Positions 1-41,610 of a stretch of DNA of 64,000 nt are shown here, piece after piece. Every line of letters starts with the position of its first letter. Positions within the stretch are counted from its first letter, which is position 1. Location of the stretch: assembly GCF_964355755.1 (NCBI RefSeq), contig NC_092679.1, positions 18,652,932 through 18,716,931 on the forward strand. Reading direction: 5' to 3'. Under the pieces are notes generated by a model. That model was not told the origin of the DNA. It did no database searches and saw only the letters and a program-made list of their open reading frames with translations. This DNA is from Antedon mediterranea. Its lineage: Eukaryota; Echinodermata; Crinoidea; Comatulida; Antedonidae. A program made the translations under genes and the position numbers.

Positions 1-423
1 TTAAGATTAATAAAAGCTGATTTTGATTAGGCCATTTGGAATTTTTATCAAGTTATTTACTTATGTAAAAAAAGAAAACCAACAAACATACTGATTTTAC
101 TTACAAAAAGACAAAATAAACGGTTAAATTTAACCAAAAACAGACAGAATACTTTTTGCTTAAAATTACATTATTTTCAGGTATAATAATAATTTTAATT
201 TTCGATCCAAAATTTGGGGAAAAGTGAATATCTAAATGTGACATTAAAATTACATTACAATTATTTTTTCAGGGGTCAAAATATCTTTAAATTTCCTACC
301 TAAAGAAATAAATTTACAATGTTGGTACTAAGGCCAAAAACGAATTACGAATTCAGAGTAAGCCTATAGTTTACTATATTTAAACAGGTTAACAGACGAT
401 TATGCGTCACTCAGAAATCAACA

Positions 424-1629
424 TTAAATTTCAATCACATTATAATAATAGGCTTCCACTTGTTGTGATGTCACAGAACTATTGTAAAATTGGACTTCGT
501 CAATCAAGCCATAGAAATAACGTTCGATCTTTTTATGTGCTGTTCCAATAACGATTGGGTTAGGATTGATTGGTATAGGACCAGAGCAACAGTCAGACTG
601 ACCAGAGCAACAGCCAGACTGACCAGCTTGTATTTGTGCATTGACATATACAGCTGCGTAAATGCCGTTATAGGTTAAAACCACATGTCGCCACACTCCA
701 AATTGAACCACAGGCTTATACTTAAATCTAGATTCACGTCGGGTAAAAAGTAATACTGTTAAATTAGGATCATTCATCATATGACCAAGTTTAATTTCAA
801 TTTCACCATCCTCATGGAAACCATTATTCAAAATAAACTGTTTACGATCACCTCTTTCGAAACTTTTATACCACAGACTAACCGTAAATTCTAATCCAAA
901 ATCAAAGTTACTGAACTCATCTACAACAATGCTCTGAGAGCCAGTGAAGTTGGCGGCTAGACCACTTACACCAGTTGTGTATGTTAAGTCTGTACCATTA
1001 GATCTTCCATGGCGTTCATTGCCAGATGTATCTTTGACGTCACACTCAAATGCGTAATAAGCAAGTAAGTACTGGTTCTCTCCAACCAAGACATTGTGTT
1101 GATGGGTGTCAGTTTGAGTACTAGACTCACCTTCCAGACAATTAGTTGACAATTCAAATTCCATTGTATGAACTTCATTTGATGTCACGACATCATCATT
1201 CATCTCCGATTGTGTACTAAACTCGTTTTCCAGACCATTAGTTAAGGATTCCGTTAATACCATTGTATTACGACCGTCTTCATCTGATGTCATATTACCA
1301 TTCATCTCGGATTGAGTACAAGACTCATTTCCCAGACCATTAGTTGAGGATTCCGTTTCTATTATATTTGTATTATCAACTCCTTCATTTTGATTCTCAT
1401 TGAATCGGTTAGCCAAACCAAAGCCAATCAGTTGATATTTATTGCAAACATCATCCGTTTTAACATGGGAATATGTAATGCATTTTGATAGTGAAACCAC
1501 TTTCAACATACATTTCTCCAGATCTGCCAATTTCACCAGTTTTTGGTTGTTTCCACATTTTGTTTGACGTTTACCATTTACGTCAAAAATTGAAAGAACC
1601 ACGATCAACGTTAACACGCTGTAATACAT
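424..1629 (-). CDS. LG1: secreted LamG-domain protein, A subtype (401 aa)
   Basis: Intact single coding exon. The start is the ATG at 1629-1627, three bases inside the exon after a 3' splice site (TTTTATCAG at 1633-1641). The frame opens a few codons earlier only through a TTG inside the intron. The protein has a hydrophobic signal peptide (about residues 1-19, ending VNG), a Cys module (Cys 25, 40, 50, 62), three acidic repeats of the type TESSTNGLENESSTQSEM (about 85-180) and a LamG_3/concanavalin A-like domain (about 187-395) with the family-typical LLAYYAFE, EFTVSLWYK, WRHVVLTYNG and FYGLIDEVQFYN motifs. N-glycosylation sequons (NGT, NFT, NLT, NSS) fit secretion. A-subtype marks are an RGD in the LamG domain and a duplicated GQSxCCS heptad. 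Secretion and carbohydrate or protein binding follow from the fold; the ligand is unknown. Confidence 0.88.
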   Translation of the reverse strand: MYYSVLTLIVVLSIFDVNGKRQTKCGNNQKLVKLADLEKCMLKVVSLSKCITYSHVKTDDVCNKYQLIGFGLANRFNENQNEGVDNTNIIETESSTNGLGNESCTQSEMNGNMTSDEDGRNTMVLTESLTNGLENEFSTQSEMNDDVVTSNEVHTMEFELSTNCLEGESSTQTDTHQHNVLVGENQYLLAYYAFECDVKDTSGNERHGRSNGTDLTYTTGVSGLAANFTGSQSIVVDEFSNFDFGLEFTVSLWYKSFERGDRKQFILNNGFHEDGEIEIKLGHMMNDPNLTVLLFTRRESRFKYKPVVQFGVWRHVVLTYNGIYAAVYVNAQIQAGQSGCCSGQSDCCSGPIPINPNPIVIGTAHKKIERYFYGLIDEVQFYNSSVTSQQVEAYYYNVIEI

Positions 1630-1709
1630 AATCTGATAAAACAAAATAAAACTGTATGTGAAAACTAGCTGTTAATTCGTATTAAAAAAACAAACTTGGA
1701 AATACGAGT

Positions 1710-1884
1710 TAGTTAAAGCAAGGATAGGAACTACAGTCCTTTGATCTTATGTCTGGCTGCGACAAATACCAACAGTACTATAAATAATCTCCGCGGCGCA
1801 CGGTGTATGTTAGGGATGTGGAACTGATCGTGTCGCAACTACAGATATGGTCTCCAAAAATCATCATCCTGTGATTGCCTTAGA
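1710..1884. mobile_element. MITE-2 copy in the LG1 5' UTR intron
   Basis: Shares TTTGATCTTATGTCTGGCTG and neighbouring blocks with copies at 11268, 20218, 55073 and 60503. The better-preserved copies have long inverted termini based on CTAACAACAGGA, the form of a non-autonomous DNA transposon. It lies inside the intron that precedes the LG1 coding exon. Confidence 0.65.
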
Positions 1885-2154
1885 GTTTAGAGGTTCTCCA
1901 CATTTTTGCCCAATAAACATAGTGAACAAATGACAGTCAATCAAAGGAGACAAATGGAAAATAAATAACGATAACAGAAAATTACGAAATTATGTTACCT
2001 TCAACATGAACCAGATTGTAATAAATCGACGGAAATAGCAGAAGCGTCACATGCTTAACTTCATAATGTAGCCAATCACATGAACTTCACAATAGTTACA
2101 ATACAATAACAAGCGCATATTCCTACAGAAGACTTTCTGAATGTATTATCTTAC

Positions 2155-2625
2155 AATACTGTTACACGAATAAATCCTTTTTGTATACTCGTCACGTTAT
2201 ATTGATCTTTCTCTCTCTAAAAAAAAGTAAAACCAATATACAGTTACATGACAATGCCAGAATACACAAAGATGATTAAGTCAATATTAGTTAAAGGCAG
2301 TTTTCTCTTTTTAATCAATATTCAATTTATGACTTGATTTATATACAATAGACGTACCACAGTATCAATGTGTAAACCAGTATTTTAAATATTAGTTTTA
2401 CTGTGAAATTTTAAATGTACGAATTGCCCCTTTATATTACATTTTAAACATTTTATTGAATAATTTTATATATTTTATAACTTTCGTATGGTAATAACTC
2501 GTTATGTTGTCTCAAAGTACAGGTAGGCTACACTGTATACATTTACATGACAAACACACAAAAAGATGTTCAACCAGTATTGTGCAAAAATAAAGCGTTT
2601 TAATTGGTTACAGGCAATGAGAATA
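2155..2625 (-). promoter_or_regulatory. LG1 5' exon and conserved promoter module
   Basis: Donor GTAAGA at 2149-2154 pairs with the acceptor before the LG1 ATG, giving a 522-bp 5' UTR intron. A second possible donor (GAAG|GTAACA, intron side at 1998) lies within it. Upstream, ATTTACATGAC (2541-2551, gene sense GTCATGTAAAT) and a CCAAT box (plus-strand ATTGG 2603-2607) recur before other LG genes in the same order. A second TTACATGAC block lies at 2244-2252. The transcription start is not located. Confidence 0.5.
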
Positions 2626-2836
2626 TAGGATTCTAACATTCCTTATTCCAGGTAAACTTAACGAGTGTTAATATTTGAGTCTAGCATTGACCATCAATCT
2701 CCGAACCTCTTATAAAGGCACAGATGAGTGGTAACGATAGGCGTAAAACCGTGTAGATTGTCCCGCTATCCTGAGCGGAGTTTCTTCTCAACCGCCCGTC
2801 CGCTTTTTGGGTAAATATAGTATAGATTTTATATTA

Positions 2837-6105: not shown

Positions 6106-7179
6106 TTATTTAATAATTTTAGTCACGTTGTAATAGTAGGTTTCCACATGCTGTGAAGCAACTGTAATATTGTAAAATTGGACTTCATCAATCAAGCCAT
6201 GAAAATAACGCCTGTTGCTGCCATGTGCTGTTCCAATAACGACTGGGTTAGAATTGATCGGTATAGGACCAGAGCAACAATCAGACTGACCAGATTGTAT
6301 CTCTGCATTGACATAAAACGCTAGGCAACTTCCATTGTAGGTTAAAACCAAATGTCGCCACACTCCAAATTGAACCACAGGAACATATTCGAATCTAGCT
6401 TCGATTAAAGTAAAAAGTGATACAAATAAATTATTAGGACCAAGTTTGAATTCAAATTCACCATCGTCCCGGAAACCATTATTCAAAATAAACTGTTGGT
6501 TATCACCTCCTTCCAAACCTTTATACCACAAACTAACTGTAAATTCTGATCCAAAATCAAAATTACTAAACTCGTCAACAACAACTCTCTGAGAGCCAGT
6601 GAAGTTGGCGGCTAATCCACTTACACCAGTTGTGTATGTTAAGTCTGTACCATTAGATCTTCCATGGCGTTCATTGCCAGATGTATCTTTGACGTCACAC
6701 TCAAACGCGTAATAAGCAAGTAAATACTGGTTCTCTCCAACCAAGAGATTGTCATGGTTGCCACTTTGCGTACTGCACTCAGTTTTCAGACAACTAGTTG
6801 ACAATTCAGATTCCATTATATGATCTTCACCTGATACATCATCATCCATCTCGAATTGAGTACTAGACTCATTTTCCAGTCCATTAGTTGAGGATTCCAT
6901 ACTTTGAAATTCTTCATCTGACGTAATGACACTATTTTGTTGATTTTCATTAAATTGGTGATGAGCAACCAGTTGATATTCGTTGCAAACATCATCCACA
7001 CTCTTTTTAAGAAACTTAAATTTAACACTGGAACATATAATGCACTTTGAAAGTGAAACTACCTCCAACATACATTTCTCTCGATCAGCCAATTTCACTA
7101 GTTTTTGGTCGCTTGTACATTTACCATTTACGGCAAATATTCCAAGAGCTACGATCAGCGTTAACGAACTGCAATACAT
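6106..7179 (-). CDS. LG2: secreted LamG-domain protein, B subtype (357 aa)
   Basis: Intact single coding exon. ATG at 7179-7177 lies three bases after acceptor TTCATTAG. Signal peptide 1-19 (ending AVNG) is followed by five cysteines at 21, 36, 46, 49 and 65, two acidic Ser/Thr repeats (about 88-140) and a LamG domain (about 152-350) with a single SDCCSG loop. The stop codon lies inside an AATAAA (plus-strand TTTATT at 6105-6110), a possible poly(A) signal overlapping the stop. It differs from U2 paralogue LG4 by scattered substitutions and a small indel around LFTLIEARFEY. It is expected to be secreted; the ligand is unknown. Confidence 0.88.
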   Translation of the reverse strand: MYCSSLTLIVALGIFAVNGKCTSDQKLVKLADREKCMLEVVSLSKCIICSSVKFKFLKKSVDDVCNEYQLVAHHQFNENQQNSVITSDEEFQSMESSTNGLENESSTQFEMDDDVSGEDHIMESELSTSCLKTECSTQSGNHDNLLVGENQYLLAYYAFECDVKDTSGNERHGRSNGTDLTYTTGVSGLAANFTGSQRVVVDEFSNFDFGSEFTVSLWYKGLEGGDNQQFILNNGFRDDGEFEFKLGPNNLFVSLFTLIEARFEYVPVVQFGVWRHLVLTYNGSCLAFYVNAEIQSGQSDCCSGPIPINSNPVVIGTAHGSNRRYFHGLIDEVQFYNITVASQHVETYYYNVTKIIK

Positions 7180-7650
7180 AATCTAATGAAACAAAGAATA
7201 AATGCCGCATACGTGGTAGTTTTCAGTGAATATGAATTTTGTAAAAATAAACTTGTAAATTAATAATAAATGAACAAAACTAAGTTCTGCATTGAAAAAA
7301 TGTATATAAAAAAAAAATAAATCAACGAAGATTTACATATACAAATATACGAGTTTTAAAATAATTAATAGTTGAGAGGCTATCCACATTGAAATGTCTA
7401 AATATAAACAAAAGTAATGAAGAACTGTGCGTTTAAACCAAGGACTAACTAGAAAATCTAACAAATGCTTTATAAATATTAGCGATTTATGAAGTTCAGA
7501 TAAACAGATAAATTACCAAATTTATGAAAATACGATAACTTGTCGAGGCCTACAGTACTTTAAATTAAACCTTAACCAACGTTGTCAATAGGTAAACTAA
7601 CAAGTACATGTCTGTTTTACTTTGTTGAAAGAATTATGGAACTAACTTAC

Positions 7651-7960
7651 AAATGTGTAGTTTGATACCAAACCGACGCATTACATGAGCACTACTTGAT
7701 ACTCTATCTTTAATATTGATCACTTTCGTAGGTAATAACTTGTTTTGTTTCCTCAATGAGTATACTGATATACGTTTACATGAAAAAATGACAAACACAC
7801 AAAAAGATTATTAACCTCTATTGTGTCAAAATGAAAAAATATCGAGCTTTAATTGGTTACAGGCAATGACAATGCTATCTTATTCGTGTTTAATTAAACC
7901 TCAATGAGTGTCAGGTTTTGGATGCATCGACAATCAATCCGCCCAAACGTCCTCTAGAGG
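7651..7960 (-). promoter_or_regulatory. LG2 5' exon and promoter module
   Basis: The canonical donor GTAAGT (7645-7650) gives a 468-bp 5' UTR intron ending just before the LG2 start. Upstream are GTTTACATGA (7774-7783) and a CCAAT box (ATTGG 7852-7856 on the plus strand) set in CGAGCTTTAATTGGTTAC, a block repeated before LG4, LG9 and LG11. Confidence 0.5.
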
Positions 7961-8188: not shown

Positions 8189-9062
8189 TCTGGGGAATGT
8201 CAGATAGCACAAACATTATTGAAAAAACACATACAAAATTGTGTAGATATTTATTGCAAGTTGGGAAAAATGCACCAAATACCGCTGTTATTTCTGAGTT
8301 AGGTAGATTACCACTTTCTTTGGATTGTTTAGTTACAGTTATAAGATTTTGGTTACATATTATTACTTTAGATCATGACAGATTCATTTTTAAGGGTTAT
8401 GAGTTTCAACTTAGAAAAGTTAACCGTAATGAGAATTGTTGGGCACAACAGGTCAAACACTTACCTTTGGTTTTGGTTATATATGGTTACAACAATATGT
8501 TAATAGTAAAGGTTTATTTTTTAGAGAATTTAAGTTGCGCTTATGTGATATTGAAAAACAAAAATGCATTCAAAAATTTAGTTCACATAATAAGTTAAGG
8601 CTCTTTTCTCTTTATAAAAAAGAAATATGTTTAAGTTATCACTTGACCAACATCATTAATTTTAAACAAAGAAGATTATTAACTAAGTTACGTTTAGGGA
8701 TATTAGAGCTAGAAATTGAAAAGGGCAGATGGGAGGGTGTAGAAAGGTATAAGAGAACGTGTAAATTATGTAAAAAGAACATTATTGAGTATGAATATCA
8801 TTTTATTTTGCAATGCACATTTTATAATGATTTAAGAAAAAGTTTTATTCCAAGATTTATTCATGTTTTTACTTCTATTAATAAGCTATGTTTATTAATT
8901 TCCAACACAAATTTTACTTATAATTTAGGAAAATACTTCTACTTTGCTTTTGAAAGAAGAAATCATTATCTTAAGTTATAGTTATTTTTTATTTGTTTTT
9001 ATTAGGGCCAAAGGCCAATATACATTGAACTAATAAATTCCCTGAAAAGGGAAAGAAGAAGA
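8189..9062 (+). mobile_element. 5'-truncated non-LTR retrotransposon (LINE) fragment, U1 copy
   Basis: Flanked by a 13-bp target-site duplication AACTATTTTGTAG (8176-8188 and 9063-9075). The same site is empty near 31100 and 35553. The translation holds the end of a reverse-transcriptase protein with a C-terminal zinc-knuckle region (CKLC, then YEYHFILQC, YNDLRK, and FAFERRNHYL before the stop at 8979-8981). A 7-bp deletion near 8466 relative to the U2 copy shifts the frame. The 3' end has short stem sequences (GGGCCAAAGGCC, TTCCCTGAAAAGGGAA) and a GAAGAAGAA tail. It is dead on arrival, in sense opposite to the LG genes. Confidence 0.88.
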
Positions 9063-9142
9063 AACTATTTTGTAGAATTTGTTTAATATTCTCCGCAATA
9101 ACACAAAACCAATAAACATAAACAATTGATTTCCAATAAATG

Positions 9143-9580
9143 AGATTTACTATTGATTTACTTAAAGATGTATGAAAAATGAAGATTAATAAAAGCAGAT
9201 TTACTATTGATTTACTTAAAGATGTATGAAAAATGAAGATTAATAAAAGCAGATTTACTATTGATTTACTTAAAGATGTATAAAAAATGAAGATTAATAA
9301 AAGCAGATTTACTATTGATTTACTTAAAGATGTATGAAAAATGAAGATTAATAAAAGCAGATTTACTATTGATTTACTTAAAGATGTATGAAAAATGAAG
9401 ATTAATAAAAGCAGATTTACTATTGATTTACTTAAAGATGTATAAAAAATGAAGATTAATAAAAGCAGATTTACTATTGATTTACTTAAAGATGTATGAA
9501 AAATGAAGATTAATAAAAGCAGATTTACTATTGATTTACTTAAAGATGTATGAAAATTAAGATTAATAAAAGCAGATTTT
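9143..9580. repeat. 54-bp minisatellite, about 8 copies
   Basis: Unit begins GATTTACTATTGATTTACTT and ends GATTAATAAAAGCA. Eight GATGTAT landmarks at 54-bp steps (9167 to 9545). Single-copy precursors of the unit exist at about 31185-31255 and 35625-35690, so the array grew from LG 3'-flank sequence. Confidence 0.92.
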
Positions 9581-9979
9581 GATTAGGCCATTTGGAATTT
9601 TTATCAAGTTATTTACTTATGTAAAAAAAGAAAACCAACAAACATACTGATTTTACTTACAAAAAGACAAAATAAACGGTTAAATTTAACCAAAAACAGA
9701 CAGAATACTTTTTGCTTAAAATTACATTATTTTCAGGTATAATAATAATTTTAATTTTCGATCAAAAATTTGGGGAAAAGTGAATATCTAAATGTGACAT
9801 TAAAATTACATTACAATTATTTTTTCAGGGGTCAAAATATCTTTAAATTTCCTACCTAAAGAAATAAATTTACAATGTTGGTACTAAGGCCAAAAACGAA
9901 TTACGAATTCAGAGTAAGCCTATAGTTTACTATATTTAAACAGGTTAACAGACGATTATGCGTCACTCAGAAATCAACA

Positions 9980-11188
9980 TTAAATTTCAATCACATTATA
10001 ATAATAGGCTTCCACTTGTTGTGATGTCACAGAACTATTGTAAAATTGGACTTCGTCAATCAAGCCATAGAAATAACGTTCGATCTTTTTATGTGCTGTT
10101 CCAATAACGATTGGGTTAGGATTGATTGGTATAGGACCAGAGCAACAGTCAGACTGACCAGAGCAACAGCCAGACTGACCAGCTTGTATTTGTGCATTGA
10201 CATATACAGCTGCGTAAATGCCGTTATAGGTTAAAACCACATGTCGCCACACTCCAAATTGAACCACAGGCTTATACTTAAATCTAGATTCACGTCGGGT
10301 AAAAAGTAATACTGTTAAATTAGGATCATTCATCATATGACCAAGTTTAATTTCAATTTCACCATCCTCATGGAAACCATTATTCAAAATAAACTGTTTA
10401 CGATCACCTCTTTCGAAACTTTTATACCACAGACTAACCGTAAATTCTAATCCAAAATCAAAGTTACTGAACTCATCTACAACAATGCTCTGAGAACCAG
10501 TGAAGTTGGCGGCTAGACCACTTACACCAGTTGTGTATGTTAAGTCTGTACCATTAGATCTTCCATGGCGTTCATTGCCAGATGTATCTTTGACGTCACA
10601 CTCAAATGCGTAATAAGCAAGTAAGTACTGGTTCTCTCCAACCAAGACATTGTGTTGATGGGTGTCAGTTTGAGTACTAGACTCACCTTCCAGACAATTA
10701 GTTGACAATTCAAATTCCATTGTATGAACTTCATTTGATGTCACGACATCATCATCCATCTCCGATTGTGTACTAGACTCGTTTTCCAGACCATTAGTTA
10801 AGGATTCCGTTAATACCATTGTATTACGACCATCTTCATCTGATGTCATAATATTACCATTCATCTCGGATTGAGTACAAGAGTCATTTCCCAGACCATT
10901 AGTTGAGGATTCCGTTTCTATTATATTTGTATTATCAACTCCTTCATTTTGATTCTCATTGAATTGGTTAGCCAAACCAAAGCCAATCAGTTGTTATTTA
11001 TTGCAAACATCATCCGTTTTAACATGGGAATATGTAATGCATTTTGATAGTGAAACCACTTTCAACATACATTTCTCGAGATCTGCCAATTTCACCAGTT
11101 TTTGGTTGTTTCCACATTTTGTTTGACGTTTACCATTTACGTCAAAAATTGAAAGAACCACGATCAACGTTAACACGCTGTAATACAT
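9980..11188 (-). pseudogene. LG3: A-subtype LamG gene with one nonsense codon
   Basis: Nearly identical to LG1 over its whole length, with start ATG at 11188-11186 and the same stop context. A single change turns the Tyr codon TAT into TAA (10994-10996), ending the product after about 64 residues, just past the Cys module. The downstream 331-codon frame stays fully open, so the lesion looks young. It may be a fresh pseudogene, a segregating null allele or an assembly error. I found no second lesion. Confidence 0.85.
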
Positions 11189-11267
11189 AATCTGATAAAA
11201 CAAAATAAAACTGTATGTGAAAACTAGCTGTTAATTCGTATTAAAAAAAACAAACTTGAAAATACGA

Positions 11268-11447
11268 GTTAGTTAAAGCAAGGATAGGAACTACAGTCCT
11301 TTGATCTTATGTCTGGCTGCGACAAATACCAACAGTACTATAAATAATCTCCGCGGCGCACGGTGTATGTTAGGGATGTGGAACTGATCGTGTCGCAACT
11401 ACAGATAAACCGTATGATCTCCGAAAATCATCATCCTGTGATTGCCT
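11268..11447. mobile_element. MITE-2 copy in the LG3 intron
   Basis: Orthologous to the copy at 1710-1884 through the U1/U2 duplication. It keeps CAGATAAACCGTATGATCTCC where the U1 copy has a small deletion, so it is the better match to the copy at 60503. Confidence 0.65.
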
Positions 11448-12393
11448 TAGAGTTTAGAGGTTCTCCACATTTTTGCCCAATAAACATAGTGAACAAATGA
11501 CAGTCAATCAAAGGAGACAAATGGAAAATAAATAACGATAACAGAAAATTACGAAATTATGTTACCTTCAACATGAACCAGATTGTAATAAATCGACGGA
11601 AATAGCAGAAGCATCACATGCTTAACTTCATAATGTAGCCAATCACATGAACTTCACAATAGTTACAATACAATAACAAGCGCATATTCCTACAGAAGAC
11701 TTTCTGAATGTATTATCTTACAATACTGTTACACGAATAAATTCTTTTTGTATACTCGTCACGTTATATTGATCTTTCTCTCTCTAAAAAAAAGTAAAAC
11801 CAATATACAGTTACATGACAATGCCAGAATACACAAAGATGATTAAGTCAATATTAGTTAAAGGCAGTTTTCTCTTTTTAATCAATATTCAATTTATGAC
11901 TTGATTTATATACAATAGACGTACCACAGTATCAATGTGTAAACCAGTATTTTAAATATTAGTTTTACTGTGAAATTTTAAATGTACGAATTGCCCCTTT
12001 ATATTACATTTTAAACATTTTATTGAATAATTTTATATATTTTATAACTTTCGTATGGTAATAACTCGTTATGTTGTCTCAAAGTACAGGTAGGCTACAC
12101 TGTATACATTTACATGACAAACACACAAAAAGATGTTCAACCAGTATTGTGCAAAAATAAAGCGTTTTAATTGGTTACAGGCAATGAGAATATAGGATTC
12201 TAACATTCCTTATTCCAGGTAAACTTAACGAGTGCTAATATTTGAGTCTAGCATTGACCATCAATCTCCGAACCTCTTATAAAGGCACAGATGAGTGGTA
12301 ACGATAAGCGTAAAACCGTGTAGATTGTCCCGCTATCCTGAGCGGAGTTTCTTCTCAACCGCCCGTCCGCTTTTTGGGTAAATATAGTATAGA

Positions 12394-12415
12394 TTTTATA
12401 TTATTATTGTTATCC
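12394..12415. other. Empty Helitron target site in U2
   Basis: Position 12403/12404 joins the two sequences that flank the U1 Helitron, with no footprint and an A/T junction. It shows the site before insertion. Confidence 0.88.
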
Positions 12416-13215
12416 GATTACCGTTTACCGCTATCACTCGTCTGTGTAAATCTGCCTTTAAAGATGTATTTTCACCCAATCAGACTCTCAATAGTCCCTT
12501 TTGCAGTTTTAATAAAGTTATTCACTTCTGATTTCACATATAAAGCCAAACGAAACGATTAATTTTAAACAAAAAAACATTTTCTGATAAACAATTTTAG
12601 TTTTTTTTCTTTAAATTACTTTTTTTTAAGAAAAATTATTTTTTTTTTCAAAAGAATAGTAGTTATTTATCGTTGTTTTGTTTTAAAGTGGAATAATTAT
12701 TACAGTCTGTCGTTTTCTTTTTATGTTGCCATCTTGTATAAGATCAGGGATAAGAGCTACAGAAAATGTTTTTATCCAGTTAGCTGCTGCTGACTGAATT
12801 CCATTTGACAGACAAAAACTTTCTTTCTTTCTTTCCACCAATGGCGAAAACGACTACTAGTTGCGAACAAGACATTTGATGAAATCTCCACCTGGTCTAT
12901 CTTGTCCGACTTATCTTTTAATTCGTATCTTGTTCATGAGTTTTTGATCGGAGGTCGGGAAGGGGCTAATTGGACCATCTGTATGCTAAATCATCCTTCT
13001 GGGAATTAAAGTTTTTTTTTGCGGGGAATTTTAATCATATAATTTATTTTCTATTTATTCAGAGACTAGGGTTCGCACGGTCTTCAAACTTGGTTTCGGT
13101 ATAAGAAAAAAAAACGAGTTAGGCCGTCAAGGTCAAATATCAAAATGTTCAAATTGCTCCGATCGAGCTGAAACTTGGTTGCTTGTATATTCACGTCAAA
13201 TATTCAAAGAAAAAA

Positions 13216-14108
13216 CTCCGCAATACATAATCTAGTGAAAAAAAAAATGATGGTGGATATGCATGGTTTTCTGTAAAAATGTGAACTTAATGACATAAAC
13301 TTGTAAATTAACGATAAATGAACACAATTTTGACAAAATGTACACAAAATAGAAATACAAATAGAAAATTTACATATAGAAACATACGGGTTTACAAACA
13401 ATTAATAGGTGAGAGGCTATATCCACATTGATTGAAATGCAAATATAACAAATGTAATATAGGAACGATCAGTACATACCAAAGACCAACTAGAAAACGC
13501 AACAAATTCTTTTAAACTTTTGGATTAAGTTTAGATAAACATATACATTTACCAATTTTATGAAAATACGCTAACTTGTTGAGGCCTACTTTAAGTTCCA
13601 AACTAACGTACTGTACTGTACCTATCTTTCTAATTTTTTGAAGAGAATCATGAAACTAACTTACAAATGTGTAGTTTGATCCAATTGACAATTTAAATGA
13701 TTTTTAATGACTTTAATATTGATCACTTTTGTAGATAAAAACTACTCTTTTGTTTTCTCAAATGGATATACATTTACATGGCCAAACAAAAAGATTAACC
13801 ACTATTGTGTAAAAATCAAAAATAAATCGAGCTTTAATTGGTTACACGAAATTGAAATAAGACTCGATTGTATTCGTGTCAAGGTAAACTCAATGAGTGT
13901 CAAGTTTTAGATCCAACGTCGGCCACTCATCCGCCCAAACCTCCTCTAGAGTAAAACACTGCTAATCGACCAGGGTGTGGTCATGTGGTGGACAAAATGT
14001 GATGTTGATATATATGTATTTATAAGTACATGTGATTACCGGTGTAAGGAATTTCAGTTATTTAACATTTTGATATTTACACATTTATTTTCATCAATCA
14101 AGCAAGCA
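13216..14108 (-). other. Orphan 5' end of a lost LG gene (U2), fuller copy
   Basis: Same arrangement as 4975-5600 but with the CCAAT block intact (ATTGG 13837-13841) and a downstream stretch missing in U1. ATG TAT TGC is again followed by unrelated sequence. It could still drive a non-coding transcript; nothing here shows that it does. Confidence 0.6.
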
Positions 14109-17596: not shown

Positions 17597-17682
17597 AACT
17601 ATTTTGTAGAATTTGTTTAATATTCTCCGCAATAACACAAAACCAATAAACATAAACAATTGATTTGCAATAAATGAGATTT

Positions 17683-26511: not shown

Positions 26512-27900
26512 TTAAATTTCAACCACATTATAATAATAGGCTTCCACTTGTTGCGACGACACAGAACTATTGTAAAATTGAACTTCGTCAATCAAGCCAT
26601 AGAAATAACGATCGTTCCTGCCATATGCTGTTCCAATAATGAATGGGTTAGGATTTATCGGTATAGAACCAGAGCAACAGTCAGACTGACCAGATTGCGT
26701 TTCTGCATTGACATAAAACGCTAGGTAACTGCCGTTATAGGTTAAAACCATATGTCGCCACGCTCCAAATTGAACCACAGGCACATATTTAAAGTTACTT
26801 TCCAATCGGGTAAAAATTGATACACATAAAATATTACTTTTTGAAAGTTTAAGTTCAAATTCACCATCCACACGGTAACCATTATTCAAGATATACTGTT
26901 TGTCATCGCCTCCTTCCAAACGTTTAAACCACAAACTAACCGTAAATTCTGATCCAAAATCAAAGTTACTGAACTCATCAACAACAATGCTCTGAGAACC
27001 AGTGAAGTTGGCGGCTAAACCACTTATACCAGTTGTGTATGTTAAGTCTGTACCATAAGACCTTCCATGGCGTTCATTGTCAGATGTATCATTTATGTCA
27101 CTCTCGAATGCGTAATAAGCAAGTAAATACTGGTTTTCTCCAACCAAGACACTGTCAGTAGTTAAACATTGACTAGTAGACTCATTTTCCTGACCATTAG
27201 TTGCGGATTCCGTTTCCATTGTACTGCCAACTTCACCTGACGTCATGACAGTATCATTCATCTCGGATTGAGTACTAGACTCATTTTCCAGTTCATTAGT
27301 TGATGATCCCGTTACCACCATTGTATTACGACCATCTTCATCTGATGTCATATTATCATCCATCTCGGATTGAGTACTAGACTCATTTTCCAGACCATTA
27401 GTTGATGATCCCGCTACCACCAATGTATTACGACCATCTTCATCTGATGTCATATTATCATCCATCTCGGATTGAGTACTAGACTCATTTTCCAGACCAT
27501 TAGTTGAGGATTCTGTTACCACCAATGTATTACGACCATCTTCATCTGATGTCATATTATCATCCATCTCGCTTTGAGTACTAGACTCATTTTCCAGACC
27601 ACTAGTTGAGGATTCCGTTTCTATTCTATTTGTATTATCAACTCCTTCATTTTGATTCTCATTGAATCGGTTAGCCAAACCAAAGCCAATCAGTTGATAT
27701 TTATTGCAAACATCATCATCCCTTTTAAATTTAACATGGGAATATGTAATGCATTTTGAAAGTGAAACCACCTCCAACATACATTTCTCTAGACCATCCA
27801 ATTTCACCAGTTTTTGGTTGTTTCCACATTTTGTTTGACGTTTACCATTTACGTCAAAAATTGCAAGAACCACGATCAACGTTAACACGCTGTAATACAT
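26512..27900 (-). CDS. LG8: secreted LamG-domain protein, D subtype with expanded repeats (462 aa)
   Basis: Longest open member. ATG at 27900-27898, signal peptide ending DVNG and a Cys module with KRDDDVCNKYQL. Then come about five tandem 34-residue repeats (residues about 90-255), each built as TESSTNGLENESSTQSEM plus DDNMTSDEDGRNTLVV, followed by a LamG domain (about 255-458). The repeat is 102 bp in DNA, so expansion keeps frame. LG10 has two fewer. The canonical 5' UTR donor used by LG10 is mutated here (ATAAGT at 28020-28025), which could reduce or reroute splicing. Confidence 0.86.
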   Translation of the reverse strand: MYYSVLTLIVVLAIFDVNGKRQTKCGNNQKLVKLDGLEKCMLEVVSLSKCITYSHVKFKRDDDVCNKYQLIGFGLANRFNENQNEGVDNTNRIETESSTSGLENESSTQSEMDDNMTSDEDGRNTLVVTESSTNGLENESSTQSEMDDNMTSDEDGRNTLVVAGSSTNGLENESSTQSEMDDNMTSDEDGRNTMVVTGSSTNELENESSTQSEMNDTVMTSGEVGSTMETESATNGQENESTSQCLTTDSVLVGENQYLLAYYAFESDINDTSDNERHGRSYGTDLTYTTGISGLAANFTGSQSIVVDEFSNFDFGSEFTVSLWFKRLEGGDDKQYILNNGYRVDGEFELKLSKSNILCVSIFTRLESNFKYVPVVQFGAWRHMVLTYNGSYLAFYVNAETQSGQSDCCSGSIPINPNPFIIGTAYGRNDRYFYGLIDEVQFYNSSVSSQQVEAYYYNVVEI

Positions 27901-28025
27901 AATCTGATAAACAAAAGAATACTGTATGTGAAAACTAGCGGTTAATTTGTATTAAAAATAACTGAACAAAACAAACTTAGAATTACGATAATCCAACAGA
28001 AGACTTTCTGAATGTATTAACTTAT

Positions 28026-28260
28026 AATACTGTCACCACTACACGAATACACGGGAAAATGATTACAGTACTTGTTTGCATACTCATCATTTTATATTGA
28101 TCAATCTCATTTTATAACTAATCATTCTCTAAAAAAAAAAGTAAAACCGATATACATTTACATGACAATGCCAGACTACAAAAAGATGATCAACTAGAAT
28201 TGTGCCAGATTAAAAGTCAATATGAATTAAAGGCAGTTTTCTCTTTTTAATCAATATGCA
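28026..28260 (-). promoter_or_regulatory. LG8 upstream region
   Basis: ATTTACATGAC (28156-28166) is present. The CCAAT box is not recognisable at the usual distance (AATTAAAGGCAG in place of AATTGGTTACAGG). Presumed promoter by position and by match to LG10. Confidence 0.4.
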
Positions 28261-28597: not shown

Positions 28598-29672
28598 TTA
28601 TTGTTCAGTGATGTTGTAATAGTAGGTTTCTACGTTTTTTGACGACACAAAACTATTATAAAATTTGATTTCATCAATCAAGCCATAGAAATAACGTTCG
28701 TTGCTGCCTTGTGCTGTTCCAATAACGACTGGGTTAGGATTGATCGGTATAGGACCAGAGCAACAATCAGACTGACCAGCTTGTATCTCTGCATTGACAT
28801 AAAACGCTAGGCAACTTCCATTGTAGGTTAAAACCAAAATGTCGTCACACTCCAAATTGAACCACATGAACATACTTGAATCTAGATCGGAATACAGTAA
28901 AAAGTGATACCAATAAATTATTAGGACCTAGTTTGAATTCAAATTCACCATCTTCCCGGAAACCATTATTCACAATATACTGTTTGTCATCACCTCCTTC
29001 CAAACGTTTATACCACAAACTAACCGTAAATTCTGATCCAAAATCAAAGTTACTGAACTCATCAACAACAATGCTCTGAGAACCAGTGAAGTTGGCGGCT
29101 AAACCACTTACACCAGTTGTGTATGTTAAGTCTGTACCATTAGATCTTCCATGGCGTTCATTGCCAGATGTATCTTTGACGTCACACTCAAACGCGTAAT
29201 AAGAAAGTAAATACTGGTTCTCTCCAACCAAGAGACTGTCATGGTTGCCAGTTTGCGTACTGGACTTAGTTTCCAGACAATGAGTTGACAATTCAAATTC
29301 CATTGTATGATCTTCACCTGATGTCACGACATCATCATCCATCTCGAATTGTGTACTAGACTCATTTTCCAGTCCATTAGTTGAGGATTCCATACTTTGA
29401 AATTCTTCATCTGACGTCATGACACTATTTTGTTGATTCTCATTAAATTGGTAAGGAGCAACTAGTTTATATTCGTTGCAAACATCATCCACACTCTTTT
29501 TAAGAAACATACATTTAACATTGGAAAACCTAATGCATGTTTAAAGTGAAACTACCTCCAACATACATTTCTCTCGATCAGCCAATTTCACTAGTTTTTG
29601 GTCGCTTGTACATTTACCATTTACGGCAAATATTCCAAGAGCTATGATCAGCGTTGACAAACTGCAATACAT
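28598..29672 (-). pseudogene. LG9: B-subtype LamG pseudogene
   Basis: Pair-mate of LG11. The start ATG (29672-29670) is kept, but a Ser codon in the Cys module is TAA (about 29545) and an extra A near 28840 shifts frame in the LamG core, giving two overlapping frames (29510 down to 28845, then 28873 to 28598). The promoter is also interrupted by an insertion (30286-30814). Confidence 0.9.
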
Positions 29673-31681: not shown

Positions 31682-32866
31682 TTAAATTTCAGCCACATTA
31701 TAATAATAGGCTTCCACTTGTTGCGACGACACAGAACTATTGTAAAATTGAACTTCGTCAATCAAGCCATAGAAATAACGATCGTTCCTACCATATGCTG
31801 TTCCAATAATGACTGGGTTAGGATTTATCGGTATAGAACCAGAGCAACAGTCAGACTGACCATATTGCGTTTCTGCATTGACATAAAACGCTAGGTAACT
31901 GCCGTTATAGGTTAAAACCATATGTCGCCACGCTCCAAATTGAACCACAGGCACATATTTAAAGTTACTTTCCAATCGGGTAAAAATTGATACACATAAA
32001 ATATTACTTTTTGAAAGTTTAAGTTCAATTTCACCATCCACACGGTAACCATTATTCAAAATATACTGTTTGTCATCACCTCCTTCCAAACGTTTATACC
32101 ACAAACTAACCGTAAATTCTAATCCAAAATCAAAGTTACTGAACTCATCAACAACAATTCTCTGAGAACCAGTGAAGTTGGCGGCTAATCCACTTACACC
32201 AGTTGTGTAGGTTAAGTCTGTACCATTAGATCTTCCATGGCGTTCATTGCCAGATGTATCATTTATGTCACTCTCGAATGCGTAATAAGCAAGTAAATAC
32301 TGGTTCTCTCCAACCAAGACACTGTCAGTAGTTAAACATTGACTAGTAGACTCATTTTCCTGACCATTAGTTGCGGATTCCGTTTCCATTGTACTGCCAA
32401 CTTCACCTGACGTCATGACAGTATCATTCATCTCGGATTGAGTACTAGACTCATTTTCCAGACCATTAGTTGAGGATTCTGTTACCACCAATGTATTACG
32501 ACCATCTTCATCTGATGTCATATTATCATCCATCTCGCTTTGACGACTAGACTCATTTTCCAGACCACTAGTTGAGGATTCCGTTTCTATTCTATTTGTA
32601 TTATCAACTCCTTCATTTTGATTCTCATTGAATCGGTTAGCCAAACCAAAGCCAATCAGTTGATATTTATTGCAAACATCATCATCCCTTTTAAATTTAA
32701 CATGGGAATATGTAATGCATTTTGAAAGTGAAACCACCTCCAACATACATTTCTCTAGACCATCCAATTTCACCAGTTTTTGGTTGTTTCCACATTTTGT
32801 TTGACGTTTACCATTTACGTCAAAAATTGCAAGAACCACGATCAACGTTAACACGCTGTAATACAT
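31682..32866 (-). CDS. LG10: secreted LamG-domain protein, D subtype (394 aa)
   Basis: Intact pair-mate of LG8 with the same signal peptide and Cys module. It has about three 34-residue repeats instead of five (68 residues fewer, exactly two units). The canonical donor GTAAGT (32986-32991) with the acceptor before the ATG predicts a short, 122-bp 5' UTR intron. The LamG domain (about 187-390) has a single CCSG loop. Confidence 0.88.
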   Translation of the reverse strand: MYYSVLTLIVVLAIFDVNGKRQTKCGNNQKLVKLDGLEKCMLEVVSLSKCITYSHVKFKRDDDVCNKYQLIGFGLANRFNENQNEGVDNTNRIETESSTSGLENESSRQSEMDDNMTSDEDGRNTLVVTESSTNGLENESSTQSEMNDTVMTSGEVGSTMETESATNGQENESTSQCLTTDSVLVGENQYLLAYYAFESDINDTSGNERHGRSNGTDLTYTTGVSGLAANFTGSQRIVVDEFSNFDFGLEFTVSLWYKRLEGGDDKQYILNNGYRVDGEIELKLSKSNILCVSIFTRLESNFKYVPVVQFGAWRHMVLTYNGSYLAFYVNAETQYGQSDCCSGSIPINPNPVIIGTAYGRNDRYFYGLIDEVQFYNSSVSSQQVEAYYYNVAEI

Positions 32867-32991
32867 AATCTGATAAACAAAAGAATACTGTATGTGAAAA
32901 CTAGCGGTTAATTTGTATTAAAAATAACTGAACAAAACAAACTTCGAACTACGATAATCCAACAGAAGACTTTCTGAATGTGTTAACTTAC

Positions 32992-33546: not shown

Positions 33547-34623
33547 TTATTGTTCAGTGATGTTGTAATAGTAGGTTTCTACGTTTTTTGACGACACAAA
33601 ACTATTATAAAATTTTATTTCATCAATCAAGCCATAGAAATAACGTTCGTTGCTGCCTTGTGCTGTTCCAATAACGACTGGGTTAGGATTGATCGGTATA
33701 GGACCAGAGCAACAATCAGACTGACCAGCTTGTATCTCTGCATTGACATAAAACGCTAGGCAACTTCCATTGTAGGTTAAAACCAAATGTCGCCACACTC
33801 CAAATTGAACCACAGAAACATATTTGAATCTAGATTTGATTAAAGTAAAAAGTGATACCAATAAAGTATTAGTACCTAGTTTAAATTCAAATTCACCATC
33901 TTCCCGGAAACCATTATTCAAAATATACTGTTTGTCATCGCCTCGATCACCTCTTTCCAAACGTTTAAACCACAAACTAACCGTAAATTCTGATCCAAAA
34001 TCAAAGTTACTGAACTCATCAACAACAATGCTCTGAGAGCCAGTGAAGTTGGCGGCTAAACCACTTACACCAGTTGTGTATGTTAAGTCTGTACCATTAG
34101 ATCTTCCATGGCGTTCATTGCCAGATGTATCATTTACGTCACTCTCAAACGCGTAATAAGCAAGTAAATACTGGTTCTCTCCAACCAAACCATTGTCATG
34201 GTTGCCACTTTGCGTACTGGACTCAGTTTTCAGACCATTAGTTGACAATTCAGATTCCATTATATGATCTTCACCTGATACATCATCATCCATCTCGAAT
34301 TGAGTACTAGACTCATTTTCCAGTCCATTAGTTGAGGATTCCATACTTTGAAATTCTTCATCTGACGTCATGACATTATTTTGTTGATTTTCATTAAATT
34401 GGTGAGGAGCAACCAGTTGATATTCGTTGCAAACATCATCCACACTCTTTTTAAGAAACTTACATTTAACACTGGAACATATAATGCACTTTGAAAGTGA
34501 AACTACCTCCAACATACATTTCTCTCGATCAGCCAATTTCACTAGTTTTTGGTCGCTTGTACATTTACCGTTTACGGCAAATATTCCAAGAGCTACGATC
34601 AGCGTTAACGAACTGCAATACAT
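33547..34623 (-). CDS. LG11: secreted LamG-domain protein, B subtype with tandem RGD (358 aa)
   Basis: Intact. The N-terminal half is close to LG2 and LG4 (same five cysteines and two acidic repeats). The LamG core is closer to LG7 and LG9 (KYVSVVQFGVW, FVSSKNVETYYYN), so it looks like a mosaic. A small in-frame insertion gives LERGDRGDDKQ, with two RGD tripeptides where LG9 has LEGGDDKQ. RGD can bind integrins in other proteins; whether it is exposed here is unknown. Confidence 0.87.
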   Translation of the reverse strand: MYCSSLTLIVALGIFAVNGKCTSDQKLVKLADREKCMLEVVSLSKCIICSSVKCKFLKKSVDDVCNEYQLVAPHQFNENQQNNVMTSDEEFQSMESSTNGLENESSTQFEMDDDVSGEDHIMESELSTNGLKTESSTQSGNHDNGLVGENQYLLAYYAFESDVNDTSGNERHGRSNGTDLTYTTGVSGLAANFTGSQSIVVDEFSNFDFGSEFTVSLWFKRLERGDRGDDKQYILNNGFREDGEFEFKLGTNTLLVSLFTLIKSRFKYVSVVQFGVWRHLVLTYNGSCLAFYVNAEIQAGQSDCCSGPIPINPNPVVIGTAQGSNERYFYGLIDEIKFYNSFVSSKNVETYYYNITEQ

Positions 34624-35091
34624 AATCTAATGAAACAAAGAATAAATGCCGCATACGTGGCAGTTTTCAGTAAATATGAATTTTGTAAAAATAAACTTTT
34701 AAATTAATAATAAATGAACAAAACTAAGTTCTGCATTGACAAAATGTATATAAAAAAAAATAAATCAATGAAGATTTACATATACAAATATACGAATTTT
34801 AAAATAATTAATAGTTGAGAGGCTATCCACATTGAAATGTCTAAATATAAACAAAAATAATGAATGACTGTGCGTTTAAACCAAGGACTAACTAGAAAAT
34901 CTAACAAATGCTTTATAAATATTAGCGATTTATGAAGTTCAGATAAACAGATAAATTACCAAATTTATGAAAATACGATAACTTAGTCGAGGCCTACAGT
35001 ACTTTAAATTAAACCTTAACCAACGTTGTCAATAGGTAAACTAACAAGTACATGTCTGTTTTACTTTGTTGAAAGAATTATGGAACTAACT

Positions 35092-35330
35092 TACAAATGT
35101 GTAGTATTGATTACTTTCGTAGGTAATAACTTGTTTTGTTTCCTTATGAGTATACTGATATACATTTACATGACAAAATGACAAACACACAAAAAGATTA
35201 TTAACCTCTATTGTGTAAAAATGGAAAAAAATTCGAGCTTTAATTGGTTACAGGCAATGACAATGCTATCTTATTCGTGTTTAATTAAACCTCAATGAGT
35301 GTCAGGTTTTGGATGTATCGACCATCAATC
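35092..35330 (-). promoter_or_regulatory. LG11 5' exon and promoter module
   Basis: B-type donor GTAAGT near 35087-35092, ATTTACATGAC (35164-35174) and CCAAT (ATTGG 35243-35247) in CGAGCTTTAATTGGTTAC. Confidence 0.5.
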
Positions 35331-36142: not shown

Positions 36143-36915
36143 TTCACATTATAATAATAGGCTTCCACTTGTTGTGATGTCACAGAACTATTGTAAAATT
36201 GGACTTCGTCAATCAAACCATAAAAATCAGACTGACCAGGTTGTATTTGTGCATATTGACATATACAGCTGCGTCAATGCCGTTGTAGGTTGAAACCAAA
36301 TGTCGCCACACTCCAAATCGAACCGCAGGCTCATACTTAAAGTTATAGTTAGATCAGGTGAGATCTTCCATGGCGTTCATTGCCAGATGTATCATTTACG
36401 TCACCCTCAAATGTGTAATAAGCAAGTAAATAGTCGTTAAACATTGAGTAATAGACACATTTTCTAGACCATTAGTTGCGGATTTAGTTTCCATTGTACT
36501 GCCACCTTCATCTGGAGGATCCCGTTACCACCATTGTATTACGACCATCTTCATCTGACGTCATGTCAGTATCATTCATCTCGGATTGAGTACTAGACTC
36601 ATTTTCCAGACCATTAGTTGAGGATTCCGTTACCGCCATTGTATTACGACCATCTTCATCTGACGTCATGTCAGTATCATCCATCACGGTTTGAGTAATA
36701 GACTCATTTTCCAGTTTATTAGTTGAGGATTCCGTTACCATGATAGGCCTATTTGTATTATCAGCACAATCATCTGATTTTATGGGCCAAGTACGGAGCA
36801 ACAAACTGATATTCATTGGAAAAATTAAAATTAACACTGGGATAGCAAATGCATTTTGTACTAAAGATCAACATACATTTATTGCGACCAGCCATTTTAA
36901 CCCGAAAAAGAACTT
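36143..36915 (-). pseudogene. LG12: truncated mosaic LamG pseudogene
   Basis: The C-terminal LamG part has internal deletions (codons lost near 36225 and 36357). The middle carries acidic repeats, and the 5' end is cut before a signal peptide against the 3' end of LG13. It is the uninterrupted counterpart of LG6 and shows where the transposon at 22200 inserted. Confidence 0.87.
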
Positions 36916-36942: not shown

Positions 36943-37923
36943 TTATGGTATCCGAGTAATATTATAGTAGTAGGCTTCTACTTGTTGTGACGACACAGAA
37001 CTATTGTAAAACTGGACTTCATCAATCAAGCCATAAAAATAACGTTCGTTGTTGCCATGTGCTGTTCCAATAACGACTGGGTTAGAATTGATCGGTATAG
37101 GACCAGAGCAACAATCAGACTGACCAGATTGTATCTCTGCATTGACATAAAACGCTAGGCAACTTCCATTGTAGGTGAAAACCAAATGTCGCCACACTCC
37201 AAATTGAACCACAGAAACATATTTGAATCTAGATTTGATTAAAGTAAAAAGTGATACCAATAAAGTATTAGTACCTAGTTTAAATTCAAATTCACCATCT
37301 TCCCGGAAACCATTATTCAAAATGAACTGTTGGTTATCACCTCCTTCCAAACGTTTATACCACAAACTAACCGTAAATTCTGATCCAAAATCAAAGTTAC
37401 TGAACTCATTAATAACAATTCTCTGAGAGCCAGTGAAGTTGGCGGCTAAACCACTTATACCAGTTGTGTATGTTAAGTCTGTACCATTAGATCTTCCATG
37501 GCGTCCAATGCCAGATGTATCATTTACGTCACTCTCAAACGCGTAATAAGCAAGTAAATACTGGTTCTCTTCAACCAAGACATTGTCATGGTTGCCAGTT
37601 TGCGTACTGGAACCACCTTCCAGACAATTAGTTGACGATTCTGTTACAATTGTATTCTGACTATTTTCATCTAACGTCACAAAATCAGTAAGTTGATTTT
37701 TATTGAATTCTTGAGCCAAATAAGGAGCATTCACTTTCCCTTTCAGTGACTTAAATCTAAAACTGTGATACCAAATGCATTTTGAAACTACTTTCAAAAT
37801 ACCTTCCTCCCGATCAGCCAATTTCACCAGTTTCTGGTCGTTTCCACATTTTATTTCATGTTGTATTCCATTTACGAGATGTATTTTCAGAACCACGATC
37901 AACGTGAACACGCTGCAATACAT
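36943..37923 (-). CDS. LG13: secreted LamG-domain protein, C subtype (326 aa)
   Basis: Intact pair-mate of LG7, same length and one-repeat linker. Differences are scattered substitutions (for example REEGILK for REECILK, which removes one Cys of the N-terminal module, and INEFSNFDFG for VDEFSNFDFG). The LamG domain is complete to NITRIP. Loss of the Cys suggests that the disulfide pattern in this subtype is not fixed. Confidence 0.87.
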   Translation of the reverse strand: MYCSVFTLIVVLKIHLVNGIQHEIKCGNDQKLVKLADREEGILKVVSKCIWYHSFRFKSLKGKVNAPYLAQEFNKNQLTDFVTLDENSQNTIVTESSTNCLEGGSSTQTGNHDNVLVEENQYLLAYYAFESDVNDTSGIGRHGRSNGTDLTYTTGISGLAANFTGSQRIVINEFSNFDFGSEFTVSLWYKRLEGGDNQQFILNNGFREDGEFEFKLGTNTLLVSLFTLIKSRFKYVSVVQFGVWRHLVFTYNGSCLAFYVNAEIQSGQSDCCSGPIPINSNPVVIGTAHGNNERYFYGLIDEVQFYNSSVSSQQVEAYYYNITRIP

Positions 37924-38399
37924 AATCTAATGAAAAGAATAGTACAGCATAATATGTGGGGTTTTTTCTGTGAGATAAATTTTAAATACAATGTTTTGAC
38001 TGACTATAGGCCTATTAATAATCACTGCACAAATTAATTTTAAAAAATAAATTAAACAATTCGGCAGGATTACCTAGAATTTATCAATTAAATAAAAGTC
38101 GTAAGGGTATCTACATTTTAATGCAACACAAGCACGTAAGGGCAACGCAACTGATTTTACCAATCACAAGAGATTGATTATTCAAACTGTTGCTCATCAT
38201 TGGTCAACTCGCTTGCGTTGCGTTTACGCTCGGACGTCCTCGTGGGAAGAAAGCTTAAATTAAAGACTAACTGGCAAATCAACAGAGCTAAAAAAAAAAT
38301 CATAAGATAATGTTACCGTCTCAACATGAACCAGCTTCTAAAATCGATTGAAATATTTTGTTGTAAACCGTTGTTTAATACCTTTGCAAGAGTATTGAA

Positions 38400-40281: not shown

Positions 40282-40365
40282 AAAACTGACTAATAGACTC
40301 ATTTTCAGACCATTAGTTGAGGATTCCGTCACAACATTATCATGTTGATTCTCATTGTATCTGAT
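40282..40365 (-). pseudogene. Relic of LG acidic-repeat coding sequence
   Basis: ACTAATAGACTCATTTTCAG and following bases match the acidic-repeat region of LG genes, out of any gene context, inside the presumed LG14 leader region. Confidence 0.6.
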
Positions 40366-40436
40366 ATAATAACTAATACAACAAGTAATGATTATTCCTA
40401 CTAACATTTTTATGTTAAAAGGATTTGTGAAAAACA

Positions 40437-40740
40437 TTACTTACAAATATTGTATGATACCAGCCGTCGCAATAAATAGATAAATGATTACTTTTGACAA
40501 TTAAAACATTAATATTGATTACTTTCATGTACAGTAGTATTATTTACATGACAAAATGATGAACACAAAAAGATGATCAATTACTATTGTGTAAAAATGA
40601 ACAATTCCAGATTAAATTGGTGACAGACAATGACAAAGATGGTCGATCTTTATTTGTGTCCCGGTAAATTCAACGAGTGTCAAGTTTTGGGTCAAACATT
40701 GACCATCTATCTGCCCTGACCTCTAAAATAAAACACTATT
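40437..40740 (-). promoter_or_regulatory. LG14 upstream module, fossil
   Basis: A GTAAGT donor (near 40443-40448), a TTTACATGAC block (about 40548) and a CCAAT-like AAATTGGTGACAG (about 40615) show that the two-part promoter was already present in the most diverged subtype. Confidence 0.4.
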
Positions 40741-40871
40741 GTCCTAAAATAGTAGTTTTCTATCTTTTTAAATAGCAGTGACAGGGCAAGATACACATAA
40801 TTTGTTCTTATGACCTTACAGTAAACTTCAACAACCCTAGCCTCACTGAAATCCCTGCCAAGCGGCTCGGG

Positions 40872-40985
40872 TAATGCAGTGTGTGATAGGGGTCTGTAGT
40901 GTGTGATAGGGGTCTGTAGTGTGTGATAGGGGTCTGTATGGTGTGATAGGGGTCTGTATGGTGTGATAGGGGTGTGTAGAGCATG
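40872..40985. repeat. 20-bp minisatellite, about 5 copies
   Basis: Unit GTGTGATAGGGGTCTGTAGT with variants ending TATG. The minus-strand translation (TPITPYRPLSHHTDP type) is only the repeat read in one frame, not a gene. Confidence 0.88.
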
Positions 40986-41429
40986 GCTAGGGTGCGGTAC
41001 GATATGTAGACCGATAATTTGTGTCACTTGCCGCTGTCTTGCTAAAATACAACATTCTCAACATTTTCCGCCTTTGGTAAGTCGTAAAATACCCATATTT
41101 ACTATACAGTTACCAATATTTTTCAATTTTTTAATAGCGCCGAATTAGCTTAAGGCAATTTTTAAAATATAGCGGCTTCGAAGCTTTCAAAAATCATCCC
41201 GATATTTCATTTTTCCAAGTTGGGAGGTCTGGACACATGTAAAGCAATTAATGTACAATTAGTACTATATATAAAAAAACACATTTATAAAAGTGGTTGA
41301 TATTTGATGTTAATTATAGAGTTTAACTTAGTTTTTTAAATAACATAAAAAGCTATATCACAACCGATAAAAAAAAAACGTTTTACATGAATGTACTACA
41401 ATAGGTTTGGTACACAGTGATACCATTAA

Positions 41430-41610
41430 ACCTGTTAAAGCAAAGTTTAAATTCAAATTCACCATCATCGCGGTACCCATTATTATCGACAAACACAGAT
41501 TGCATTCACTTTCTTCAAACTGACAAATTAGTTCAAAAAGTTAAAAGTTATTTATACAAGAATATTCTTTTTTGAGAGCCGGTGAACTTGGCATTTATAC
41601 CATGTGTGGC
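41430..41610 (-). pseudogene. Last relic of a LamG gene at the array edge
   Basis: AAATTCAAATTCACCATCAT and GAGAGCCGGTGAACTTGGC match two separate points of the LamG coding region in the right order and orientation. The intervening sequence is not alignable by eye. It marks the eroded edge of the array. Confidence 0.6.

Follow-up and report, generated by a model that had tools for sequence, protein, structure and literature searches.

A tandem array of genes for proteins with a single laminin G (LamG) domain extended from position 424 to ~41,600 of the window, i.e., the whole 64,000-nucleotide stretch of Antedon mediterranea DNA analyzed here (contig C10, NC_092679.1, positions 18,652,932 to 18,716,931; 354.43-Mb genome in 18 contigs, the 11 large ones 41.4 to 22.3 Mb; GC content 32–37% in the DNA fetched for analysis). 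Of the 15 copies or fragments of a single gene in the window, eight were open and seven broken or fragmentary; all lay on the minus strand, head to tail, in agreement with a first-pass annotation that had counted at least fourteen such copies with eight open and the rest decaying. We read these genes, at about even confidence, as a lineage-specific family of secreted LamG proteins that evolved by birth-and-death plus recombination and that would likely serve in extracellular recognition or surface coating of the innate immune type.

The open copies were sorted by their N-termini into three types: A (starting at 424, 26512, and 31682), B (6106, 14623, and 33547), and C (24245 and 36943). The copies were arranged as follows (window coordinates):

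424–1671, minus strand: open copy A1, 415-aa frame with ATG at 1629
6106–7182, minus strand: open copy B1
9980–11188, minus strand: broken A-type copy with a single in-frame stop and 99.3% identity to A1
14623–15705, minus strand: open copy B2, its coding sequence the same as that of the copy at L005:2506–3582 (C10:18,645,437–18,646,513)
18944–20136, minus strand: broken A-type copy with one stop and a 13-bp deletion
21563–22260, minus strand: broken B-type copy without the 5′ part and with three frameshifts
24245–25228, minus strand: open copy C1, with the shortest linker in the window
26512–27951, minus strand: open copy A2, the longest copy, its linker containing a 102-bp repeat in 4.5 copies
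28604–29672, minus strand: broken B-type copy with two stops and one frameshift
31682–32917, minus strand: open copy A3, with 2.5 copies of the 102-bp repeat
33547–34626, minus strand: open copy B3, a mosaic with a B-type 5′ part and a LamG nearer to type C
36145–36760, minus strand: fragment with LamG remnants, acidic repeats, and many lesions
36943–37926, minus strand: open copy C2
39110–40055, minus strand: broken near-complete copy, the most diverged, with two stops and several frameshifts
41400–41610, minus strand: doubtful LamG remnant (59.5% identity) at the array end

Acidic-repeat cassettes lay immediately downstream of both C-type genes (36515–36740 and 23817–24042); they are remnants of a neighboring copy that was co-duplicated with the C gene.

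All eight open window copies displayed a common protein plan of signal peptide, short three-cysteine module, Ser/Thr-rich linker, and one Laminin_G_3 domain, which is the plan given in the first-pass annotation, acidity aside (see below). Pfam Laminin_G_3 (PF13385) was found in 4/4 open window copies scanned, with 57.5–77.5 bits and E values of 2.2e-15 to 1.6e-21, and all four thus exceeded the curated cut-off of 27.6 bits; a profile search with the LamG head gave LamG/pentraxin-type folds, its nearest PDB entries being a protein with an S-layer domain, a module of an arabinanase, pappalysin-2, and PTX3 (E 0.006). The module C..C..KC preceded linker plus LamG, and its three cysteines were invariant in nine aligned sequences from the array and contigs C1 and C2 (one row of this alignment being a hand-typed hybrid). 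Window copy C1 reads W at the third cysteine, and window copy C2 reads G at the second. No Pfam match to the module was found in nine members scanned, apart from a single weak unrelated hit at 0.066; Pfam gave no chitin-binding or VWA domain in four array and two non-array family proteins, and no membrane anchor was seen in four proteins profiled. The tripeptide RGD occurred inside LamG in two of the eight open window copies, at 424–1671 (residue 259) and 33547–34626 (residues 224 and 227), and the same site was mostly GGD in the other open window copies.

Linker sequence and length varied from locus to locus. Across 21 proteins, linkers had a Ser plus Thr content of 20–46% and a pI of 3.4 to 10.9: all nine C10 rows were below pI 5, and the 12 non-array linkers comprised five acidic ones and seven at pI 8.1–10.9. 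The net charge was −15 to −35 in types A and B and −3 in type C. The repeat unit of the window linkers was 102–105 bp (34–35 residues), with different units at different loci; of 26 frames examined, 12 had a tandem array in the linker, with periods that were multiples of three in 12/12, which bears out the expandable repeats proposed at first and shows them to be in frame. An additional 13-bp array in L006a and L006b preceded the presumed start codon and lay outside the linker. The acidic character initially ascribed to the repeats held for types A and B, but it was weak in type C, and the three leftmost short copies of the array had no repeat (see below). Acidity is not a defining property of the LamG family; the conserved property of the linker is that of a Ser/Thr-rich stalk of free length.

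The array, at first placed at window positions 1–41,610, did end near 41,500, but it started at C10:18,611,274, 41.7 kb beyond the left edge of the window. Over its ~83 kb, twice the length stated earlier, the whole array contained at most 27 copies or fragments; this count is an upper figure since some pieces (e.g., two lone N-terminal ones) may be parts of neighboring fragments. Fourteen copies were open (eight in the window plus six to the left), and 13 of the up to 27 were broken or fragments; the three leftmost open copies were short, with LamG almost directly after the module. Self-comparison of a 114-kb region revealed duplicated blocks at 99.4% (8.6 kb), 96–97%, 94%, 90%, and 83% identity; the region was free of N bases, but the 99.4% block may be a false duplication of the assembly. 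Decay was likewise graded, from a gene with 99.3% identity and a single stop to remnants with heavy deletions. The recent segmental duplication and the birth-and-death with graded decay that had been proposed were both recovered, and the flanks described as microsatellite-like turned out to contain a 54-bp minisatellite, the copy number of which differed between its two window sites in the youngest duplicate pair. The corresponding features were as follows:

9404–18006, no strand assigned: 8.6-kb block, 99.4% duplicate of C10:18,640,200–18,648,817 to the left of the window
9135–9579, no strand assigned: 54-bp minisatellite, 8.3 copies
17669–18543, no strand assigned: 54-bp minisatellite, 16.3 copies

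Repeated frames at window positions 8433–8981 (plus strand) and 17060–17515 (plus strand), L004:6654–7115, and L005:4940–5395 travelled with the duplicated blocks, each adjoining the 54-bp minisatellite or its reading frame; presumably they resemble a retroelement end, and no Pfam match above the cut-off was obtained for them.

The LamG domain is under moderate purifying selection: its dN/dS was 0.33–0.81 in comparisons of diverged copies of types A, B, and C, and that of the linkers was often near or above 1. In six pooled pairs, the LamG ratio was 0.63, with the lowest values at the domain start (0.10) and near its end (0.20), and the most variable 12-residue LamG window reached N/S 1.55 as a descriptive value. 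In neutral simulations, a frame at 10% divergence stayed open in 1–4% of runs without indels and in ≤0.05% with frameshifts, and a frame at 1% divergence stayed open by chance in 64–71%. The simulations support past function of the diverged types and not that of the youngest copies, which, given the latter figure, prove nothing alone by being open.

Several genes are mosaics, in which the 5′ part and the later LamG part have separate histories. L006a and L006b in the contig C2 cluster had 2/139 synonymous differences through leader, linker, and LamG start and 51/98 thereafter; the relation was reversed for L006b and L026 (27/70, then 8/137). In the C10 array, S2 and S3 were near-identical to mid-LamG (1/87 synonymous), followed by 31.5/85, and a synonymous shift was also observed in the copy pairs B1/B3, B3/C1, and B1/B6. 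The shift extends to synonymous sites, so constraint acting domain by domain fails on its own to explain these six clear mosaics; unequal crossing-over or gene conversion would be their natural cause.

The likely gene model has two exons, a 5′ one and a main coding one, as suggested by a putative splice acceptor and an upstream island. YAG-ATT-ATG following a pyrimidine-rich stretch was found directly before the start codon in 11/11 aligned open array copies, and a similar acceptor was present within ~20 bases in most unlinked members, except that none was obvious in L026 and one L007 gene, and that it was found only farther upstream in L014, L024, and S1. Since the ATG lies after the acceptor, the leader would be coded by the main exon; at L010, L011, L018, and L020, no ATG followed the acceptor, and an upstream exon is therefore needed there. 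Types A, B, and C shared a conserved upstream island, and a donor-like site CAT|GTAAA within it was present in 8/8 open and 1/3 broken copies aligned. The single coding exon of the initial description was right in that the coding part was open in one piece, but strictly single-exon genes are doubtful given the acceptor plus the island. The putative islands were as follows:

2473–2623, minus strand: island upstream of A1, putative promoter plus 5′ exon with donor
7715–7872, minus strand: putative island upstream of B1
28145–28213, minus strand: putative island upstream of A2
35106–35263, minus strand: putative island upstream of B3
25804–25900, minus strand: putative island upstream of C1

The family is genome-wide and reaches beyond the C10 array, with relatives in a contig C1 cluster, in a more diverged contig C2 cluster, and as singletons. 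The Laminin_G_3 search of the genome gave 89 matches, 21 of them in the C10 array and many of the others belonging to unrelated architectures. Module, linker, and LamG stood in one open frame at ten non-array loci, L008, L010, L011, L014–L019, and L024 (contigs C1, C2, and C9), the plan being cut short in the second gene of L010. A contig C1 protein used as query had 18 matches, 15 at C1:32.71–32.82 Mb (two of them weak, E 0.1 and 0.8) and three in the C10 array, and the module was also visible at C1:16.65 and C9:25.70. In other searches of the assembly, no COX1 match was obtained, and models of mollusc hemocyanin and annelid linker proteins gave no match, the controls being equally silent.

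In mechanistic terms, the signal peptide would direct secretion of a probably glycosylated protein, the three-cysteine module may cross-link subunits, the Ser/Thr-rich and often repetitive linker would act as a stalk of variable length, and the single Laminin_G_3 (concanavalin-A-like) domain would be the likely ligand-binding head. Genes would multiply through segmental duplication and die through stops and frameshifts, and unequal crossing-over or gene conversion would bring 5′ parts (leader, module, linker) into new combinations with later LamG parts. The most likely use of such proteins would be recognition outside the cell or coating of an exposed surface; recognition of the innate immune type is our first choice, and a structural surface matrix is the main rival. 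A more specific version, in which a recognition family diversifies by modular recombination, is unlikely as it stands: crossovers in or around the conserved LamG start would swap the variable second part of the head, the swapped heads would join different leader-module-stalk parts, and locus-specific in-frame repeats would tune stalk length. That the mosaic pattern recurs in two or more distinct clusters (C10 and C2) suggests a regular mode of evolution rather than a single accident.

Several observations weigh against the reading as a recombining family of secreted recognition proteins: (i) the plan was split between frames or broken at L009 and L020, and the C2:16.66–16.90 Mb cluster had similar LamG domains with the module end only (KCxRYPS); (ii) no significant positive selection was detected in LamG of the six pooled pairs, and very recent pairs were rich in nonsynonymous changes (10N:1S, 14N:2S, and 15N:3S, all small counts); (iii) a clear shift in synonymous sites was lacking in two of the eight pairs (B1/C1, p 0.053; A2/C1, p 0.74), and the p-values of all the pairs are optimistic, the cuts being taken from the maximum chi-square scan; (iv) the maximum chi-square test, which gave p ≤ 0.001 in 23/45 array pairs, 2/3 S pairs, and 3/6 contig C2 pairs, is blind to rate differences between domains; and (v) AlphaFold models were of low confidence (mean pLDDT 26.9 and 26.4, shallow alignments).

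A structural matrix of cuticle, skeleton, egg coat, mucus, or adhesive, with load-bearing or mineral-binding repeats, copy number acting as dose, and turnover reflecting relaxed drift, has an appreciable but clearly lesser probability. Matrix proteins commonly have expandable repeats and duplicated genes, types A and B have highly acidic linkers, and the LamG ratio below 1 with positive selection unproven fits such a role as well; LamG3 and Pif are oyster shell matrix proteins in the accessible text of PMC10543319. The acidity, however, is unconserved, with 7/12 non-array linkers being neutral to basic (see above), and this paralogue pI weakens acidic mineral binding as a core function; moreover, the proteins scanned had no chitin-binding or VWA domain, and mosaic LamG heads would be unnecessary in a matrix. 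It is quite improbable that the array is mostly neutral copy-number noise, i.e., a decaying family sustained by unequal crossing-over in which most copies have no current function. Such noise would account for the broken or fragmentary state of 13 copies out of at most 27, for one broken copy being 99.3% identical to an open one, and for the ease with which 1%-diverged frames stay open by chance, but the diverged A, B, and C types are still open with LamG ratios below 1, linker repeats stay in frame, and the putative splice acceptor is kept in all 11 aligned open copies. Self/non-self or gamete recognition, in which polymorphic secreted heads would tell individuals apart, is marginally less probable still: the loci are mosaic and rapidly duplicating, but the proteins profiled showed no membrane anchor.

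Duplication, recombination, and loss together form a recognized type of pattern, often seen in microbe-recognizing or surface-building proteins, and the array puts ages from 99% to 83% identity on view. Were the open copies found to be expressed at exposed surfaces, they would represent a new animal gene family with duplication, repeat expansion, and half-domain exchange side by side, and it could be tested whether LamG heads act in diversified recognition in the way that C1q, fibrinogen, and SpTransformer proteins do in other systems. Under the matrix reading, the array would show stalk chemistry (acidic, neutral, or basic) changing freely around a conserved head.

The array was bounded at its right by genes for a nuclear VCP-like AAA ATPase and pyruvate carboxylase, both on the minus strand; its left neighbor was the exon of a CatSper-like channel, with CatSper 1 as the best match (E 1e-8). 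Tandem LamG_3 clusters of other architectures were observed at C6:19.72–19.79 Mb and C5:29.21–29.22 Mb, and the identical scores of five C6 matches suggest very recent duplication or homogenization. Frames of ~1000–1070 aa with multiple laminin G domains were represented by L028:1212–3299 (C3:17.14 Mb; Laminin_G_2 at E 3e-27 for the part read), with similar Laminin_G_3 matches at C3:25.18, C4:16.66, and C9:14.11 Mb and near-identical match scores on three chromosomes. A minus-strand frame beside L028 had a Walker-like motif, which we take to resemble those of large DNA virus terminases, and no Pfam match; the L028-type frames may mark an element, mobile or of endogenous viral origin, with a secreted LamG protein as cargo.

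The family was compared with several known systems. It had been put forward as not a described family, and indeed no match to the module in Pfam and no description of the module-linker-LamG architecture in open papers was found, within a comparison covering Pfam, PDB sequences, and open papers rather than NR; the Laminin_G_3 head domain, in contrast, is known to Pfam and PDB profiles. Pentraxins have a related concanavalin-A-like fold (PTX3, see above). Their signature is H-x-C-x-[ST]-W-x-[ST], and it was present in 0/8 open window copies. Mollusc FREPs form a large tandem family of secreted, lectin-like proteins, and mollusc C1qDC is another such family in the accessible part of PMC6835236, but the head domain differs in both. 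The Pif/LamG3 shell proteins of lophotrochozoans are likewise secreted with a Laminin_G_3-type domain; as far as the accessible text of PMC10543319 goes, those of oyster are clustered and duplicated and have chitin-binding domains (plus VWA in Pif), unlike the six family proteins scanned here.

The genomic style resembled that of sea urchin Sp185/333 (SpTransformer, SpTrf; also PMC8634487, in part), of which the C10 family is not a member. Shared with Sp185/333, as described in the accessible parts of PMC3091723 and PMC5491942, were clustered short genes, main-exon repeats, segmental duplications, mosaics, and tandem repeats around genes; a two-exon layout, putative here, would be a further parallel, although the first exon of Sp185/333 codes the leader and the leader here would fall in the main exon. 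Induction upon immune challenge is another mark of Sp185/333. The C10 array differed in two respects: (i) SpTrf proteins are Gly- and His-rich without LamG, whereas a LamG head and other repeats were found here, the Gly-rich/RGD/His-rich SpTransformer layout being absent (RGD only inside LamG of the two window copies; Gly and His judged by eye); and (ii) the array was rich in broken copies, while no gene fragments were found for Sp185/333 in the accessible part of PMC3091723. The 185/333 analogy drawn at the outset gains ground from the likely 5′ exon, coding repeats, duplications, and mosaics and, with the LamG domain and the many broken copies set against it, remains an analogy.

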